DNA of 42,564 nucleotides. Source: Labilithrix sp. GTDB taxonomy: Bacteria; Myxococcota_A; Polyangia; Polyangiales; Polyangiaceae. Positions within the stretch are counted from its first letter, which is position 1. Each line of letters begins with the position of its first letter. Below are positions 5,313 to 25,305 of the stretch, in pieces. The DNA is taken from assembly GCA_028287065.1 (NCBI GenBank), contig JAQBQJ010000342.1, positions 1 to 42,564 of the forward strand, read 5' to 3'. The translations under genes were made by a program, and so were the position numbers. The notes under the pieces are model-generated. The model was not told the origin of the DNA. It searched no databases and was given only the letters and a program-made list of their open reading frames with translations.

Positions 5313-6307
5313 GGATCCGCCTTCTCGTCGTGCTCGTGCTCGTGCCCGTGCTCGGAGCTCGTGAGCTCGGCGAACACCTCTTCGAGGGAGCTGCGGATCG
5401 GGCGAACCTCGCGGACGAAACAGCCTGCGCTCACGAGCGCGGCGACGGCTTGCTCGATGGCTTGCGCCGTCCCCGCTTCGTCGAGCTTCTTCTGCCAGCT
5501 GCAGCGGAGCTCGTGCGTGTCGGTGCCGGAGGCTTCGGGCTCGGCCTTCGCGATGCCCGGGACGGCGCGCACGGCGGAGAGCGCGGCCTCGACATCGCCG
5601 CGCACGACGAGCACGAGGCCCGCGGCGCGGCGCTTCCGCGAGATCGACTCCATCGTGCCTTCGGCGACGAGCTTGCCCTTCGCGATGACGACGACGCGGC
5701 TGCAGCTCGCCTCGACCTCGCTGAGGATGTGCGTCGAGAGGAGGACAGTGTGCTCCTTGCCGAGATCGCGGATGACGTCGCGGACCTCGCGGATCTGGTT
5801 CGGATCGAGGCCGGCCGTGGGCTCGTCGAGGACGAGGAGCGGAGGGCGCGCGACGAGGGCGTCGGCGAGACCGACGCGCTGGCGGTAGCCCTTGGAGAGG
5901 CTGCCGATGAGGACGTTCGCGACGTCGTCGACGTTGGCCTTCGCCATCGCGTCGTCGACGAACGCGGGACGATCGCGGCGCGGCACGCGCTTGAGCTCGG
6001 CGCGGAACGCGAGGTACTCGGCGACGCGCATCTCGGGATAGAGCGGGACCGCTTCGGGCATGTAGCCGATCTTCTGGCGAGCCTCGAAGCTCTGATCGCG
6101 GATGTCGAAGCCCGCGACGCTGACCTTGCCGCTCGTCATGCCGAGGAAGCCCGACAGGATGCGGAGCGTCGTGCTCTTTCCGGCGCCGTTCGGTCCGAGG
6201 AAGCCGACCACCTCGCCCTTGTCGACCTCGAAGGACACGTCGTCGACGGCGAGGCGGGCATTCGCGCCGGTGCCGTAGCGCTTGACGAGCTTCTGGACGG
6301 AAATCAT
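5309..6307 (-). CDS. GldA-like ABC transporter ATP-binding protein
   Basis: ORF 332 aa; Walker A GPNGAGKSTT, signature LSKGYRQRVGLA, Walker B LLVLDEPTAGLD; His/Glu-rich C-terminus. Confidence 0.95.
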   Translation of the reverse strand: MISVQKLVKRYGTGANARLAVDDVSFEVDKGEVVGFLGPNGAGKSTTLRILSGFLGMTSGKVSVAGFDIRDQSFEARQKIGYMPEAVPLYPEMRVAEYLAFRAELKRVPRRDRPAFVDDAMAKANVDDVANVLIGSLSKGYRQRVGLADALVARPPLLVLDEPTAGLDPNQIREVRDVIRDLGKEHTVLLSTHILSEVEASCSRVVVIAKGKLVAEGTMESISRKRRAAGLVLVVRGDVEAALSAVRAVPGIAKAEPEASGTDTHELRCSWQKKLDEAGTAQAIEQAVAALVSAGCFVREVRPIRSSLEEVFAELTSSEHGHEHEHDEKADP

Positions 6308-6387: not shown

Positions 6388-7386
6388 GTGAGGAAGAGGG
6401 CATCGGTTTCGATCGGCGTGATCGGCGTGATCGGGATCGTCGCGTGTCGGTCGGGGGCGGCGCCGGCGCCGGCGGGACCGGCGGTGAGTGCGGAGGCGGA
6501 GGCGTGCGCGACCGCGAGCGCTGACGCGAGCGCGAGCGCGGACGCTGACGCGAGCGCGAGCGCGGACGCTGACGCGAGAACGGATTCGGGCACGGGCACG
6601 GGCACGGGTACGGGTACGGGGGCGCGTGGCGAGGACGGGATGCTCGTCGTGACGGGAGGGACCTTCACCATGGGCGCCGAGAGTGGCGGCGAAGGCGACG
6701 AGCGGCCGGCGCACCCGGTCACCGTGGCGTCGTTCTGGTTGGATCGGACGGAGGTCACGCAGGCGGCCTACGACGAGTGTGTCGTGGCGAAGGCTTGTCC
6801 GGCGCCGGACGCGGCGATCCTCGCGACGTTCGGCGGTCTGTTCAAGGGACCGAACAAGCCGGTGGTGGGCGTGTCGTGGTTCGCCGCGCGTGACTACTGC
6901 AAGTGGAAGGGCAAGCGGCTGCCGCGTGAAGCGGAGTACGAGCGTGCCGTGCGCGGGGAAGATGGTCGTCGGTATCCGTGGGGCAACGACGCGCCGACGC
7001 ACGAGCGCACGGTGTTCGAAGCGAATGCGACGGAGGACGTCGCGACGCATCCGAGCGGCAGAGGGCCGTACGGCCACGACGATCTGGCGGGCAACGTCTG
7101 GGAGTGGATCGAGGACGACTACGATCCGCTCGCGTACACGAGACCGGGAGCCGCCGAGGGCAAGGCCGGCACGTGCGAGGAGATCGTCGCAGCGCAGAAC
7201 AAGCTGCGAGCGGAGAACAAGCAGGGCTTCACCGGCTCGAACCCGATCCCGACCGAGTGCGAAAAGTCGATCCGCGGAGGTGCGTACAACTACCCGGCGG
7301 GCGGGTTGAGGAGCACGAACCGGATTCACCATCCGCCGGGGTTCAAGTTGCGGATGACGGGGGTTCGGTGCGCGAAGGACGCGTAG
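6388..7386 (+). CDS. SUMF1/formylglycine-generating-enzyme-like domain lipoprotein with repetitive linker
   Basis: ORF 332 aa; lipobox-like IVAC; GGTFTMGAESGG..., WLDRTEVTQAAYDECV, LPREAEYERAVRG, YPWGND, GNVWEW, GGAYNY motifs. Confidence 0.88.
   Translation: MRKRASVSIGVIGVIGIVACRSGAAPAPAGPAVSAEAEACATASADASASADADASASADADARTDSGTGTGTGTGTGARGEDGMLVVTGGTFTMGAESGGEGDERPAHPVTVASFWLDRTEVTQAAYDECVVAKACPAPDAAILATFGGLFKGPNKPVVGVSWFAARDYCKWKGKRLPREAEYERAVRGEDGRRYPWGNDAPTHERTVFEANATEDVATHPSGRGPYGHDDLAGNVWEWIEDDYDPLAYTRPGAAEGKAGTCEEIVAAQNKLRAENKQGFTGSNPIPTECEKSIRGGAYNYPAGGLRSTNRIHHPPGFKLRMTGVRCAKDA
6521..6578. repeat. 2.4 copies of a perfect 24-bp tandem repeat (ctgacgcgagcgcgagcgcggacg)
   Basis: Direct reading; encodes ADASASAD-type linker repeats. 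Confidence 0.95.
6586..6621. repeat. (GGGCAC/GGGTAC)n hexamer array, encodes (TG)n linker
   Basis: cgggcacgggcacgggcacgggtacgggtacggg read directly. Confidence 0.9.
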
Positions 7387-10466: not shown

Positions 10467-11156
10467 GTGATGCGTTCGTCGATGGCGCTTTTTGCGGCGA
10501 TTGTGGTGTTTTCTGCAGCAGCGTGCCGATCCCCAGAGATCGGTTCACGGAGCACGGCCACGGCGACGGCCACGGCCACGGCCACGGCCGTGAGCCCCAT
10601 TCCAATCCCTGTTCCTGTTCCTGTTCCTGTTCCGCCCAACCCCATCGTCACCCGCGCTCGCCTCGAGGTCGCACGCGGCGTCACCTACGACTCCGCATAC
10701 CTCCCGATCGCCTACCCCAACGGCGATCCCTCGCCCGACCGCGGCGTCTGCACCGACGTCGTCATCCGATCCCTCCGCGCCACCGGCGTCGATCTCCAGT
10801 CGCGCATCCACGAGGACATCCTTCGCCACCCCACCGCGTACGCGACCGTCAAGCACCCCGACGGCAACATCGACCACCGCCGCGTCACGCCGATGCTCGC
10901 GTACCTCCGCGCGCACGCGACCGAGCTGCCGAAGACGTTCGACGACGCATCGCTCTCGACGTGGCAACCCGGCGACATCGTCGTCTGGGCCTTTCGCCCG
11001 TGCCCGGCGTGCAATCCCGATCACGTCGGCATCGTGAGCGATCGCAAGGGGGCACGCGACGTGCCGCTCGTCCTGCACAACATCGGGCCGGTCCCGAGCG
11101 AGGACGATCGCCTCGACGCATGGACCGTGCTCGGTCACTTCCGCGTGAAGAGCTGA
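10467..11156 (+). CDS. DUF1287 domain lipoprotein with repetitive N-terminal linker
   Basis: ORF 229 aa; lipobox-like AAAC; GVTYDSAYLPIAYPNGDPSPDRGVCTDVVIRSLRATGVDLQ..., TWQPGDIVVWAF, HVGIVSD. Confidence 0.87.
   Translation: MMRSSMALFAAIVVFSAAACRSPEIGSRSTATATATATATAVSPIPIPVPVPVPVPPNPIVTRARLEVARGVTYDSAYLPIAYPNGDPSPDRGVCTDVVIRSLRATGVDLQSRIHEDILRHPTAYATVKHPDGNIDHRRVTPMLAYLRAHATELPKTFDDASLSTWQPGDIVVWAFRPCPACNPDHVGIVSDRKGARDVPLVLHNIGPVPSEDDRLDAWTVLGHFRVKS
10538..10592 (+). repeat. Dispersed element copy B: GATCGGTTCACGGAGCAC(GGCCAC)n
   Basis: Direct reading; shares GATCGGTTCACGGA with 13609-13622 and CACGGAGCACGGCCACGGC with the reverse complement of 13502-13552. Confidence 0.85.
10608..10634. 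repeat. (CCTGTT)n hexamer array encoding (PV)n
   Basis: ccctgttcctgttcctgttcctgttcc read directly. Confidence 0.9.
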
Positions 11157-12070: not shown

Positions 12071-13752
12071 TTCTTGCTCCGCGGAACGGGGTCGGTCGCG
12101 TCGACGTTCGTCACCTCGGCGTCGAACGAGCCGGCGCCGACCCGCACGTGCACGCGATCGCCCGGAGCGACCTCGCTCGCGTCACGCACCGCGCGTCCGT
12201 CCTTCGTGCGTGTCGCGATCGCGTAGCCGCGCGAAAGGACCTTGAGCGGGCTCATCGCGTCGAGACGTCCGGCGAGACCGGCGATCTCGCGACGCTCGTC
12301 GGAGAGACGCGCGCGCGAAGCTTCGACGAGCCGCCCCCGCACCTCGTTCGTGTGACCGCGCGTGGCCGTGAGGCGCGCGCGGGCGATCTCGAACAGACGC
12401 GTGCGGTATGCAAGCACCTGTCCCAGGTCGCGGGCGATCCGTGCGCGGGGATGCGCCGCGCCGAGCCTCCCGCCGAGGCGCGTGGCGGTCTCGCGATCGC
12501 GCGCGATGGTCCGCGTCACCATCCGCGACATGCGCGCGACGTGATCGTCGACGCGCTGCTGCGCGCTCGCGATGAGCAGCCGTGGATCGCGGAACGCGCT
12601 CGCGACCTTCGCGGTGCGCGCGCGCTCCTCGGCGATCCGCGCGTGGACGGCGCGGCGGAGGCGCATGTCGCGCTCCTCGAGGAGACGGCGGCGCCCGTTC
12701 GCGTCGGGCACGACCATCTCGGCGGCCTGCGAAGGCGTGGACGCGCGGGCATCGGCGGCGAAGTCGACGAGCGTAATGTCGGTCTCGTGACCGACGGCGC
12801 TGACCACGGGGACGCGGCACGCAGCGACGTCACGCACGAGCTGCTCGTCGTGGAACGCGAGGAGATCGTCCTGCGAGCCGCCGCCGCGTCCGACGATGAT
12901 CACGTCGACCTCGGGGATCCGCTGGAGAGCGGCGAGCGAGCGACGGACCGCCTCGGCGGCGCCGACGCCTTGCACCTGCGCGGGCGCGAGCAGGATGCGC
13001 GCGCCGCCGCGACGGAACGACACCTTGCAGATGTCGTGGATGACGGCGCCGCCCGCGCTCGTCACGACGCCGATGATGCGCGGCTCGTGAGGGAGCGGCC
13101 GCTTGCGCTCCTGCGCGAAGAGGCCTTCGGCGTGGAGCTTGACCTTGAGCTTCTCGAGCGCCTCGAGGAGAGCGCCCTTGCCGGTCGGCTCGATGCGATC
13201 GCCGATGAACTGCATCTTCCCGCGCGGCGACCAGAAGGTCGGCTTTCCGCGAAGGCGGATGCGAACGCCGTCTTTGACGAGCGCCTTCGAGCGCGGCGTG
13301 ACGTTCGCGCGATAGACGACGCAATCGACGACGGCCTCTTCGTCCTCGTCTTTGAGGCAGAAGTAGAGGTGGCCGCTGGGCGCGGGCCGAGCGCCGCTGA
13401 TCTCGCCCTCGACCCAGAGGGCTTCGGAGAAGTTTCGTTCGAGGGTGCGGGTGAGGATGCGGCCGAGCTGCGCGACGGTGAAGATCGTCGGCACCGCTTT
13501 CGCCGTGGCCGTGGCCGCCGTGGCCGTGGCCGTGCTCCGTGGAGGACCGATCTTCTCGGGGGGCGTCGCCGGCTGAGACGTCGTCGCGGCCTGCTGACCT
13601 TCATCCGGGATCGGTTCACGGATGACGGCCACGGCCACGGCCACGGCGGGAGAAGGCGGCGATTCCTCCTTCGGCTTCGGTGCTTGCGGGGCAAACACCG
13701 CGAAGTCGAACGCGATGTTCTCGCCCTTCGCCGGCGGGCGCTTCTCGCTCAT
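12067..13752 (-). CDS. xseA: Exodeoxyribonuclease VII large subunit with repeat-bearing N-terminal extension
   Basis: Part of ORF 12067..14271 from MSEKRPPAKGENIAF; LWVEGEISGARPAPSGHLYFCLKDEDEEAVVDCVVYR, ITSAGGAVIHDI-like VVTSAGGAVIHDICKV, GRGGGSQDDLLAFHDEQLVR, VSAVGHETDITLVDFAADARASTPSQAAE. Confidence 0.95.
   Translation of the reverse strand: MSEKRPPAKGENIAFDFAVFAPQAPKPKEESPPSPAVAVAVAVIREPIPDEGQQAATTSQPATPPEKIGPPRSTATATAATATAKAVPTIFTVAQLGRILTRTLERNFSEALWVEGEISGARPAPSGHLYFCLKDEDEEAVVDCVVYRANVTPRSKALVKDGVRIRLRGKPTFWSPRGKMQFIGDRIEPTGKGALLEALEKLKVKLHAEGLFAQERKRPLPHEPRIIGVVTSAGGAVIHDICKVSFRRGGARILLAPAQVQGVGAAEAVRRSLAALQRIPEVDVIIVGRGGGSQDDLLAFHDEQLVRDVAACRVPVVSAVGHETDITLVDFAADARASTPSQAAEMVVPDANGRRRLLEERDMRLRRAVHARIAEERARTAKVASAFRDPRLLIASAQQRVDDHVARMSRMVTRTIARDRETATRLGGRLGAAHPRARIARDLGQVLAYRTRLFEIARARLTATRGHTNEVRGRLVEASRARLSDERREIAGLAGRLDAMSPLKVLSRGYAIATRTKDGRAVRDASEVAPGDRVHVRVGAGSFDAEVTNVDATDPVPRSKK
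13502..13552 (-). repeat. Dispersed element copy C1 (inverted): (GCCGTG)n..GGCCGTGCTCCGTGGAGGACCGATC
   Basis: Reverse complement reads GATCGGTCCTCCACGGAGCACGGCCACGGCCACGG; matches copy B. Confidence 0.82.
13609..13650 (+). repeat. Dispersed element copy C2: GATCGGTTCACGGATGAC(GGCCAC)n
   Basis: Direct reading; 14-bp identity with copy B followed by the same hexamer array. Confidence 0.85.
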
Positions 13753-16668: not shown

Positions 16669-16719
16669 GCCGTGCGCGCGTAGTGGTCACCGTTGGAGAA
16701 TCGCGGTAACGGTGCCGCC

Positions 16720-18234
<1,515 letters not shown>

Positions 18235-18283
18235 GGGCCGGCTAGGGCCTGTCGGGCATTCGTCGCGGTCACGTCGCCTCTCG

Positions 18284-18382
18284 CCCGTAAACGTGAACGT
18301 GCCCGTGCACGTGCACGATCTTCGATCTCGGACCCGACGATCCGAGATCGGGCACGGGCACGGGCACGTTCACGTTTACGGG
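18284..18382. repeat. Long inverted repeat/hairpin: 21-bp perfect outer stem, asymmetric internal region, 10-bp inner stem, 8-nt loop
   Basis: cccgtaaacgtgaacgtgccc (18284-18304) with gggcacgttcacgtttacggg (18362-18382); cgatctcgga (18323-18332) with tccgagatcg (18341-18350). Confidence 0.92.
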
Positions 18383-18420
18383 GAGACTGCGCCGCGCGGT
18401 CGCGGCGGGCGCCCGCGCCG

Positions 18421-18948
18421 CTAGTCGCCGTCCGCCGCGGCGTCCGAGCTCGGCTCCGCGTCGGGACCGGCGTCGACGGCGCATTCGACCGGGCATGTAC
18501 TCTGCACGCACCCGAGGAGCGAGAGCGCGTCCTTGCGCGTCTCCTTCGTGACGAAGATGTTCGCGAGCTCCGACGCGCAGCCGATCATCTGCGTGGTGAG
18601 GTAGCACTCGAGCGCGTTCCTCACGATCTCCTGGCACGGGCAGTCCTCCGTGCAATTCGCGATCGCCGCGCCGCACTCCTTGCGCGCGCAGCCGAGGCAC
18701 AGGCCCGTCGTCGACGATCCGTCTCCGATCGACGCGTCGTGGACCCTCGCGAACAGATCCGCCGCGCGGTTGCACGGCGGATCGCGATCGGCCGCGTCGT
18801 CCGACGCGGCCTCGCGCCGGCCGCCTTCGCCCGTCGCCGCATCGACGACGTCGTCGGCCGTGACGTCGCTGGCGCTGCACGCCTGGACCGCGAGCGCGCC
18901 CCCGAGCAGCCCGATCGACACGAAGGCGAGCGGGGTCCGGAGGCGCAC
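18421..18948 (-). CDS. Cys-rich lipoprotein, paralog of the 18968..19489 product
   Basis: ORF 175 aa; lipobox VQAC; CLGCARKECGAAIANCTEDCPCQE...LLGCVQSTCPVEC. Confidence 0.8.
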   Translation of the reverse strand: MRLRTPLAFVSIGLLGGALAVQACSASDVTADDVVDAATGEGGRREAASDDAADRDPPCNRAADLFARVHDASIGDGSSTTGLCLGCARKECGAAIANCTEDCPCQEIVRNALECYLTTQMIGCASELANIFVTKETRKDALSLLGCVQSTCPVECAVDAGPDAEPSSDAAADGD

Positions 18949-23283: not shown

Positions 23284-25305
23284 ATGGGACGCTTCTACGC
23301 AACGACGCCGATTTACTACGTCAACGACGTGCCGCATCTCGGCACGGCGTACACGACGATCGTGACGGACGCGCTACGCCGCTTCCACCAGTTGATCGGC
23401 GACGAGACGTTCATGCTGACCGGGACCGACGAGCACGGTCTCAAGATCGAGCGTGAGGCGAAGGCCCAGGGGCTCGATCCGAAGGTCTTCTGCGATCGCA
23501 TCAGCGCGCGCTTCCGCGACGCGTGGCCGAAGCTCGACGTCTCTCCCGATCGCTTCATCCGCACGACGGACCCCGACCACGAGGCGTTCGTCAAGGAGCT
23601 CTGGAAGAAGATCGAGGCGAACGGCGATCTCTACGAGGGCGAGTACGAAGGCTGGTACTGCGTCGGCTGCGAGTCCCTGAAGACCGAGAAGGAGCTCGAG
23701 CAGCCGGGCAACCTCTGTCCGCTGCACAAGGCGCCCGTCGAGCGCATCAAGGAGAGCTCGTACTTCTTCCGCCTCGAGAAGTGGCAAAAGCCCTTGCTCG
23801 ACTTCTACGCGCGGCATCCGAATTTCATCCAGCCCGAGTCGCGCAAGAACGAGGTCCTCTCGTTCGTGCAGAGCGGCCTGAAGGACCTCTCGGTGTCGCG
23901 GACCACGTTCTCGTGGGGCATCCCGGTCCCGAGCAATCCGAAGCACGTCATGTACGTGTGGTTCGACGCGCTCTCGAACTATCGCAGCGCGCTCGGCAAC
24001 GGCGAGCTCGCGCGGTTCTGGGCGCCGAACGCGAAGGTCGTGCACCTCGTCGGCAAGGACATCCTCCGTTTCCACGCGGTCTTCTGGCCCGCGTTCCTGT
24101 TGAGTGCAGGATACAGGGAAGAGGAGCTGCCCGACGTCGTCTACGCGCACGGCGTCCTCACGGTCGACGGCCAGAAGATGAGCAAGTCGCTCCGCAACGC
24201 GGTCGATCCGCTCAAGCTCGCCGCCGAGCTCGGACCGGACGTGCTGCGCTATCACCTGCTCCGCGCGATCGCGTTCGGTCAGGACGGCGACTTCGATCAC
24301 GCCGCGCTCCTCGAGCGTTACAACGCCGATCTCGGCAAGAACGTGGGCAACCTGCTCTCGCGCGTCATCGGGCTCTGCACGAAGATGACGAACGGCAAGC
24401 ACCCCGACGACGACGTCGCGACCGACGGCCCGCTCGAGGCGGAGCTCTTCGAGGCCTACGAGCAGAACGTGAGCGCGGCGCGCGACGCGTGGCTGAACCT
24501 CGCGCCGCATCTCGCGCTCGATCACGCGATGAAGCTCGCGAACGCCGCAAACCTCTACGTCGCGAAGACGGAGCCCTGGGCCGAGGCGAAGAACGGCAAC
24601 ACGGCGCGCGTGAACAAGATCCTCTCGCGCATGCTGCGCGTGCTCGAGGCCATCAGCGTGATGCTGTGGCCGGCGATGCCCTTGAAGAGCGACGCGATGC
24701 GCGCGCAGCTCGGTCTCCCGCCGGTGCGCGCAGGCGTGGGCGTCGACATCTGGCCGCTGAAGCTGCCGTCGATCCGCGCCGGGCTCGAGCTCGCGAATGC
24801 CGGGCCGCTGTTCCCGACGTACGACGAGAAGGCGCAGGCGGAGCTGCTCGAGAGGCTCGTGCCGAAGATCGAGAAGAGTGAAGAGACGGCGAAGCCGAGC
24901 GCGAAGACGGGCACGGGCACGGGCACGGGCCCGGGCACGGGCACGGATGGCGGCACCATTGCTTACGATGACTTTGCCACGGTCGACCTGCGGGTGGGGC
25001 TCGTCATCAGCGCCGAAAAGGTACCCAAGAAAGACAAGCTCCTTCGGCTCACCGTCGATCTCGGCGAGACCGAGCCTCGCACCATCGTCGCGGGGCTCGC
25101 GCTCTCCTTCACGCCCGAGGCGCTCGCCGGCAAGAAGGTGATCGTCGTCGCGAACCTCGCGCCGCGCGAGTTCGGGTCTGCCGAATTCGACGGCAAGAAG
25201 GTCAAGCTCGTGTCGCACGGCATGCTCCTCGCGAGCGGTCCCTCCGAGGATCTCCGCCTCGCGACGATCGACGGCGACGCTGCACCGGGCGCCAGGTTGA
25301 AGTGA
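23284..25305 (+). CDS. metG: Methionyl-tRNA synthetase with C-terminal tRNA-binding domain
   Basis: ORF 673 aa; YYVNDVPHLGTAYT, CVGCESLK...LCPLHK, KMSKSLRNAVDP, C-terminal DDFATVDLRVGLVISAEKVPKKDKLLRLTVDLGE. Confidence 0.97.
   Translation: MGRFYATTPIYYVNDVPHLGTAYTTIVTDALRRFHQLIGDETFMLTGTDEHGLKIEREAKAQGLDPKVFCDRISARFRDAWPKLDVSPDRFIRTTDPDHEAFVKELWKKIEANGDLYEGEYEGWYCVGCESLKTEKELEQPGNLCPLHKAPVERIKESSYFFRLEKWQKPLLDFYARHPNFIQPESRKNEVLSFVQSGLKDLSVSRTTFSWGIPVPSNPKHVMYVWFDALSNYRSALGNGELARFWAPNAKVVHLVGKDILRFHAVFWPAFLLSAGYREEELPDVVYAHGVLTVDGQKMSKSLRNAVDPLKLAAELGPDVLRYHLLRAIAFGQDGDFDHAALLERYNADLGKNVGNLLSRVIGLCTKMTNGKHPDDDVATDGPLEAELFEAYEQNVSAARDAWLNLAPHLALDHAMKLANAANLYVAKTEPWAEAKNGNTARVNKILSRMLRVLEAISVMLWPAMPLKSDAMRAQLGLPPVRAGVGVDIWPLKLPSIRAGLELANAGPLFPTYDEKAQAELLERLVPKIEKSEETAKPSAKTGTGTGTGPGTGTDGGTIAYDDFATVDLRVGLVISAEKVPKKDKLLRLTVDLGETEPRTIVAGLALSFTPEALAGKKVIVVANLAPREFGSAEFDGKKVKLVSHGMLLASGPSEDLRLATIDGDAAPGARLK
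24908..24948. repeat. (GGGCAC)n hexamer array in metG interdomain linker
   Basis: gggcacgggcacgggcacgggcccgggcacgggcacgg; encodes TGTGTGPGTGT. Confidence 0.92.

Follow-up and report, generated by a model that had tools for sequence, protein, structure and literature searches.

A long hairpin between two convergent genes of a Labilithrix genome is a probable relic of a small transposon inserted at a CTAG on a stop codon

The window analysed here is a stretch of 42,564 nt from Labilithrix sp. in which an accC-like biotin carboxylase gene (16720–18234, plus strand; Pfam PF00289, PF02786 and PF02785; alternative in-frame start upstream at 16693) converges with a gene for a predicted lipoprotein (18421–18948, minus strand; signal peptide ending in ...AVQAC as read from the translation). 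Both genes were called by our own codon-usage caller. The gap between them contains a hairpin that is not assigned to either strand (18284–18382), found both by folding and by a search for inverted repeats. Its distance is 49 bp to the accC stop and 38 bp to that of the lipoprotein gene, and no inverted repeat in the window is longer.

The two arms of the hairpin are 44 nt long, 91% complementary and 11 nt apart. A perfect outer stem of 21 bp is formed by 18284–18304 (CCCGTAAACGTGAACGTGCCC) and 18362–18382 (GGGCACGTTCACGTTTACGGG), and an inner stem of 10 bp by 18323–18332 (CGATCTCGGA) and 18341–18350 (TCCGAGATCG), all read on the plus strand. The inner stem was picked in the fold of the minus strand and on inspection of the sequence closes a loop of 8 nt; the two stems are joined by an asymmetric middle part made of hexamers. 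Folded as RNA, the hairpin reaches −92 kcal/mol on the plus strand and −97 kcal/mol on the minus strand, about 10 standard deviations better than shuffled sequences on both strands (z = −10.1 and −10.7, with 0 of 200 shuffles equally good). All of these elements, from the perfect outer stem through the asymmetric hexamer part to the inner stem with its loop, had been given correctly in a preliminary description, as had the placement between the convergent stops at 18234 and 18421. The strong fold is the argument for a structured non-coding RNA gene, one of the readings raised in that description. However, a search of Rfam with the hairpin returned no family match, no promoter-like site was found nearby in a scan that used the sigma-70 consensus only, the hairpin is not conserved at this locus and has arms similar to transposon ends. 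A non-coding RNA is therefore hardly credible.

The full feature is larger than that description had it and runs from CTAG to CTAG (18242–18424). Between the left CTAG (18242–18245) and the right CTAG (18421–18424), neither of which is assigned to a strand, lies an inserted, MITE-like element of 175 bp (18246–18420, plus strand), with a 141 bp core that recurs in the genome (18262–18402, plus strand). The first three positions of the right CTAG (18421–18423) also serve, on the minus strand, as the lipoprotein gene's TAG stop. Our gene caller leaves the gap between the two genes empty, and the element is short and has no transposase gene. The two CTAG copies are inferred to be a target-site repeat from the sequence and from comparison of the locus with that of congeners.

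Lipoprotein-related proteins follow accC in five congeners (G007, G002, G006, G003 and G009). In the other six (G001, G004, G005, G008, G010 and G011) the neighbour is different or was not recognised, and these genomes therefore inform only on the absence of the hairpin. The element is found downstream of accC in none of the 11 congeners, as judged from the first 400 nt of the gaps together with a search of the genomes for the element. G002 represents an empty site: its single CTAG coincides with the lipoprotein stop, GAC-TAG being the context both here and in the host genome (G000), and the gap reads TAG, 18 bp and CTA(G), compared with TAG, 7 nt, CTAG, 175 bp and CTAG in the host. In G007 the gap is 7 bp, with 93% identity in the accC segment and 59% in the lipoprotein, and the distance to the related lipoprotein is 58 bp in G006, 138 bp in G003 and 880 bp in G009. 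Both the target-site repeat and the empty site that would mark a MITE of an IS5-family element are thus present, and CTAG on both sides is compatible with duplication of either 4 bp (CTAG) or 2 bp (TA).

These loci also bear on the possibility that the hairpin is a functional bidirectional terminator or mRNA 3′-end stabiliser common to the two genes and kept for that role. Its closeness to both stops and its very stable fold are in agreement with such a role, and copies on contig C340 of the host, in G108 and in several cases in G006 are likewise placed between convergent genes, at comparable distances. On the other hand, neither strand has a T tract, as the preliminary description had already seen, so that the hairpin does not qualify as an intrinsic terminator, and a terminator scan likewise returned no terminator-like site near it. 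The hairpin is missing at the locus in all congeners, with G007 and G002 managing with gaps of only 7 and 18 bp between these two genes, some related units lie between divergent genes (L025 and L047), and the position is accounted for by CTAG targeting. We thus consider a retained terminator improbable, while a terminator effect as a side effect of a transposon remnant is possible.

The host genome is a MAG of 7.09 Mb in 577 contigs that is 72% complete. It contains the 141 bp core at no fewer than three further sites with 88–94% identity, namely C340:9096–9236 (94%), C260:5961–6088 (88%) and C260:5712–5820 (94%, plus its right part at 5848–5895); in one of the C260 copies the inner part is duplicated. 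The surroundings of these copies are mutually unrelated, and a related palindrome with different flanks is present on C126. The several dispersed copies that characterise a MITE are thus represented by at least three core copies and the C126 palindrome, and the search for the palindrome elsewhere in the genome that had been proposed earlier turned out positive. These other copies match over the 141 bp core only, and each lacks CTAG on at least one side. All five palindromes found in the host are intergenic and downstream of a gene, and two of the five are between convergent genes. More than 20 solo half-units also occur in the host, commonly with a GATC head and often with a tail GTTTACGGG or GTGTACGGG; by inspection, the consensus of the half-unit is CCCGTAAACGTG(NNCGTG)nCGATC. 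A gapped version of the half-unit pattern, run against all species genomes, hit ten contigs; the six that were inspected are coding-like and lack a palindrome, and these hits were judged by their appearance to be chance matches. The window also holds a second hexamer family, consisting of GATCGGTTCACGG followed by CCACGG repeats, at 10545–10589 and 13494–13649, the latter in inverted orientation within a predicted gene. A literature search on hexanucleotide palindromes or MITEs in myxobacteria returned nothing pertinent.

Hexanucleotide microsatellites in chance inverted copies, without any transposition, could be invoked here, and period-6 arrays in the host do exceed a Markov control (14 against 2, of which 2 are runs of N). 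However, the copies have common non-repetitive flanks (141 bp at 94%), the GATC heads and GTTTACGGG tails recur, and the insertion at the locus is flanked by CTAG. The microsatellite reading is already contradicted by the common asymmetric flanks, and we regard it as highly improbable.

The outer parts of the element point to a transposon. The left end begins with CTAGGGCCTGTC at 18242 and continues as CTAGGGCCTGTC...GGTCACG..CGCCTCT. It corresponds to the ends of MITEs in a related genus (G020). One of these MITEs, 190 bp in size (C138:53682–53871), has perfectly inverted 13 bp ends (CTAGGGCCTGTCC) and an internal hexamer array. The 42 nt of the left end align with a G020 end more closely than any of 2000 shuffles. 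At the degenerate right end the match to IS ends is at chance level, with 46–367 of 2000 shuffles doing equally well, and the resemblance to an inverted left end is weak (reached by 9 of 2000 shuffles). The inner hexamers form an excellent inverted repeat. In G006, a family-wide pattern search picked up inverted pairs of units 165–300 bp apart that form MITE-like elements bordered by CTAG, on the left in eight of nine and on both sides in six of nine, where about 0.02 is expected per 70 bp flank from the CTAG frequency of the host genome. The G006 arrays are oriented the other way round with respect to the ends, and these elements are therefore a variant and not the window layout. The elements at L211–L219 of G006, about 165–300 bp in size, mostly sit right after TAG or CTAG near gene ends, and the one at L219 has a long CGTCT pentamer array inside.

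A candidate parent type is provided by related insertion sequences (ISs) in the congeners G011 and G004 and in G020. The copies in G011 and G004 are about 1.37 kb in size, flanked by CTAG and carry 4–6 GTGCCC hexamers inside each end. The G011 element is 1368 bp, again with CTAG on its flanks; one of its ends has (GTGCCC)6 on the inner side and the other has (GGGCAC)4. Its ORF is that of an IS5-family transposase (NF033580 above cut-off, PF13340 and PF01609); the profiles were run on this G011 copy, which is frameshifted, so that the pieces are named from separate frames. The similar copy in G004 has one stop. The minus strand of the G011 IS also encodes a four-helix-bundle protein (TIGR02436; L274 and L281 on C14), an unusual passenger. 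Going inward from CTAG, the outer end is followed by CCC(GTGCCC)n and then GATC, an order that is common to the IS and the arms of the window hairpin. Loss of the interior of such an IS would therefore give the architecture seen in the window. The preliminary description had recognised that the hairpin is built of one type of hexamer; that hexamer belongs to transposon ends. In the host, neither a protein search nor a PF13340 search matched a DUF4096/IS5 transposase of the type carried by the IS, which is weak evidence for its absence since the MAG is only 72% complete. As an autonomous IS with the same ends is not found in the host, our claim is limited to a MITE with IS5-type ends, and the parent is not proven.

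A different mobile origin of the palindrome, as a REP doublet (BIME) moved by a REP-associated tyrosine transposase (RAYT), was examined because RAYT genes are abundant in the host and units adjoin them at three loci. There are 19 RAYT-like matches in the host, more than in any other of the 58 genomes searched, and 13 Pfam Y1_Tnp matches. Inverted half-units flank the C217 RAYT on both sides, one unit lies upstream of that on C352 and the C126 palindrome is about 165 bp past the C-terminus of a RAYT. Yet G001, G006, G020 and G030 carry units without a RAYT of this class, and these RAYTs are therefore not the general source. Most units have no RAYT close by, a GTAG/GGAG head is missing from the unit, and the CTAG ends together with IS5-type ISs carrying the same arrays provide a better fit. 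The RAYT origin was dropped on the strength of the four RAYT-free genomes and the IS5-type ends, and we consider it even less probable than a retained terminator. The RAYT-like loci of the host (C217, C155, C321, C441, C230, C352, C80 and others) have other palindromic repeats in their flanks, for example CGAACCTTGGTTCGTTT and GGAACTAAGGAC.

The hairpin thus looks, from its sequence, like the remnant of a small transposon inserted at the CTAG on the stop codon of the lipoprotein gene, and the reading as a transposon remnant is well supported. The element is present here and absent at the locus in congeners, has CTAG on both sides, has dispersed copies, and shares its left end with MITEs and its subterminal hexamer array with an IS. 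Of the interpretations in the preliminary description, the small palindromic mobile repeat gains from the dispersed copies, the CTAG-flanked insertion, the empty site of a congener and the IS with the same subterminal array, while the structured RNA falls away. More specifically, we estimate a probability of roughly 0.8 that the element is a MITE of a CTAG-targeting IS5-type element that has lost its interior. The source would be an IS5-family IS that targets CTAG and has ends composed of an outer segment of about 30–45 nt and a CCCGTG-type hexamer array. Deletion of the transposase-bearing interior would have brought the two hexamer ends together, producing a near-perfect hairpin. Subsequent copying, presumably by an IS5-type transposase, into the CTAG that doubles as the lipoprotein TAG stop would leave a CTAG at either side and disrupt neither reading frame.

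Elements of this kind would settle at the 3′ ends of genes, often between convergent ones, because CTAG is rare within genes and concentrated at stop codons and in gaps. In 227.6 kb of the host genome CTAG is observed 52 times against 649 expected from base composition, an approximately 12-fold depletion. Fifteen of the 52 share bases with a stop codon, 25 lie between genes and 12 within them, in sequence that is about 92% coding. Among genes facing elements 18 of 31 stop with TAG, compared with a background of 42 of 187 (binomial P of about 2e-5); the count was tallied by hand over several genomes mixed, with the background taken from the host. A requirement for CTAG in connection with a stop codon is also found in IS870 of Agrobacterium vitis, where the target completes the ORF of the IS itself; here, in contrast, CTAG provides the stop of a host gene. 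Apart from a possible influence on mRNA 3′ ends, the element most likely has no function for the host.

The solo half-units are distributed differently from the intergenic palindromes: 16 of the 22 placed by the gene caller in the host are inside genes. One of them (L075) lies in the window at 6586–6620 on the minus strand, inside the gene 6418–7386, and reads ...SGTGTGTGTGTG... The hexamer array is open in all six frames. Of 15 genic half-units that were read, 11 use a single frame, (S)GTGTGT(F)TG with SGTGTGTGTFTG or a close variant (L007, L008, L010, L014, L015, L023, L065, L071, L075, L077 and L078), three read VHVPVPVP and one RARARA. This bias has a P of about 1e-5 if the six frames are equally likely, an assumption that selection may violate. 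In G007 few genic units were read, mostly in the VPVPVP frame. The host genes include those for RlmN and CoaBC and, by protein reading, also PheT, a UvrD-type helicase, a ClpA-like protein and MFS proteins. The RlmN insert SGTGTGTFTG is absent from 10 of 10 aligned congeners. The CoaBC insert TGTGTGTFTG is absent in the 11 congeners, except for a short AGTGT at the same position in G007. Ordinary MITE transposition does not explain the solo half-units in genes. Two further repeats were observed in coding regions of the window: directly upstream of the half-unit insert, the same gene carries a 24 bp coding repeat in 3.9 copies (6486–6578), and an ACGGGC hexamer array at 24907–24946 in the predicted gene 23284–25305 is by its reading frame a GTGTGT-type insert.

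The window element resembles MITEs of the IS5 family (IS427 and IS5 groups; YTAR or TA target) in being short, devoid of a transposase gene, flanked by CTAG, dispersed and in having the subterminal hexamer array of IS5-family ISs of related genomes. Insertion sites of IS5 in Escherichia coli include CTAA and CTAG (PMC11677980), and elements of the IS427 group mostly make a 2 bp duplication, with one listed with 4 bp (PMC3281130). It differs in that the inner part of the window-type ends consists of hexamer arrays of variable copy number, and loss of the interior therefore leaves a very long hairpin; moreover, the related IS, which is assigned to IS5 at the family level, carries the four-helix-bundle ORF as a passenger. 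Like REP/BIME elements with their RAYTs, it has short units paired in inverted orientation at the 3′ ends of genes, and some of these units flank RAYT genes. Its CTAG ends, the missing head and its occurrence in genomes without this RAYT class set it apart. The Rickettsia palindromic elements (RPEs), the reference for in-frame repeat inserts (PMC10969869), are alike in that related repeat units are inserted in frame in housekeeping genes (RlmN, CoaBC and others). In-frame repeats in conserved genes that orthologues lack are a property of the solo half-units and not of the window hairpin. The units concerned are half-units of about 30–48 bp and not the whole palindrome, the five palindromes of the host are intergenic, and the likeness is one of kind and does not come from a comparison of sequences.

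The odd hairpin thereby becomes a traceable event, with a target site, an empty site in a relative and a candidate parent IS. A target that is rare and concentrated at stop codons amounts to a self-limiting strategy, in which few genes are broken and strong hairpins are left at mRNA 3′ ends. More tentatively, and with the odds somewhat against it, the IS5-type ends may have become a portable coding module, deposited as whole MITEs at stop codons and as solo half-units that serve as flexible in-frame SGTGTGTFTG linkers in housekeeping genes. It would resemble the RPE system, lie outside Rickettsia and have a transposon source that can be identified. The gain of peptide segments by conserved proteins from short mobile DNA can be tested, outside Rickettsia, on the in-frame inserts of RlmN, CoaBC and further housekeeping proteins.
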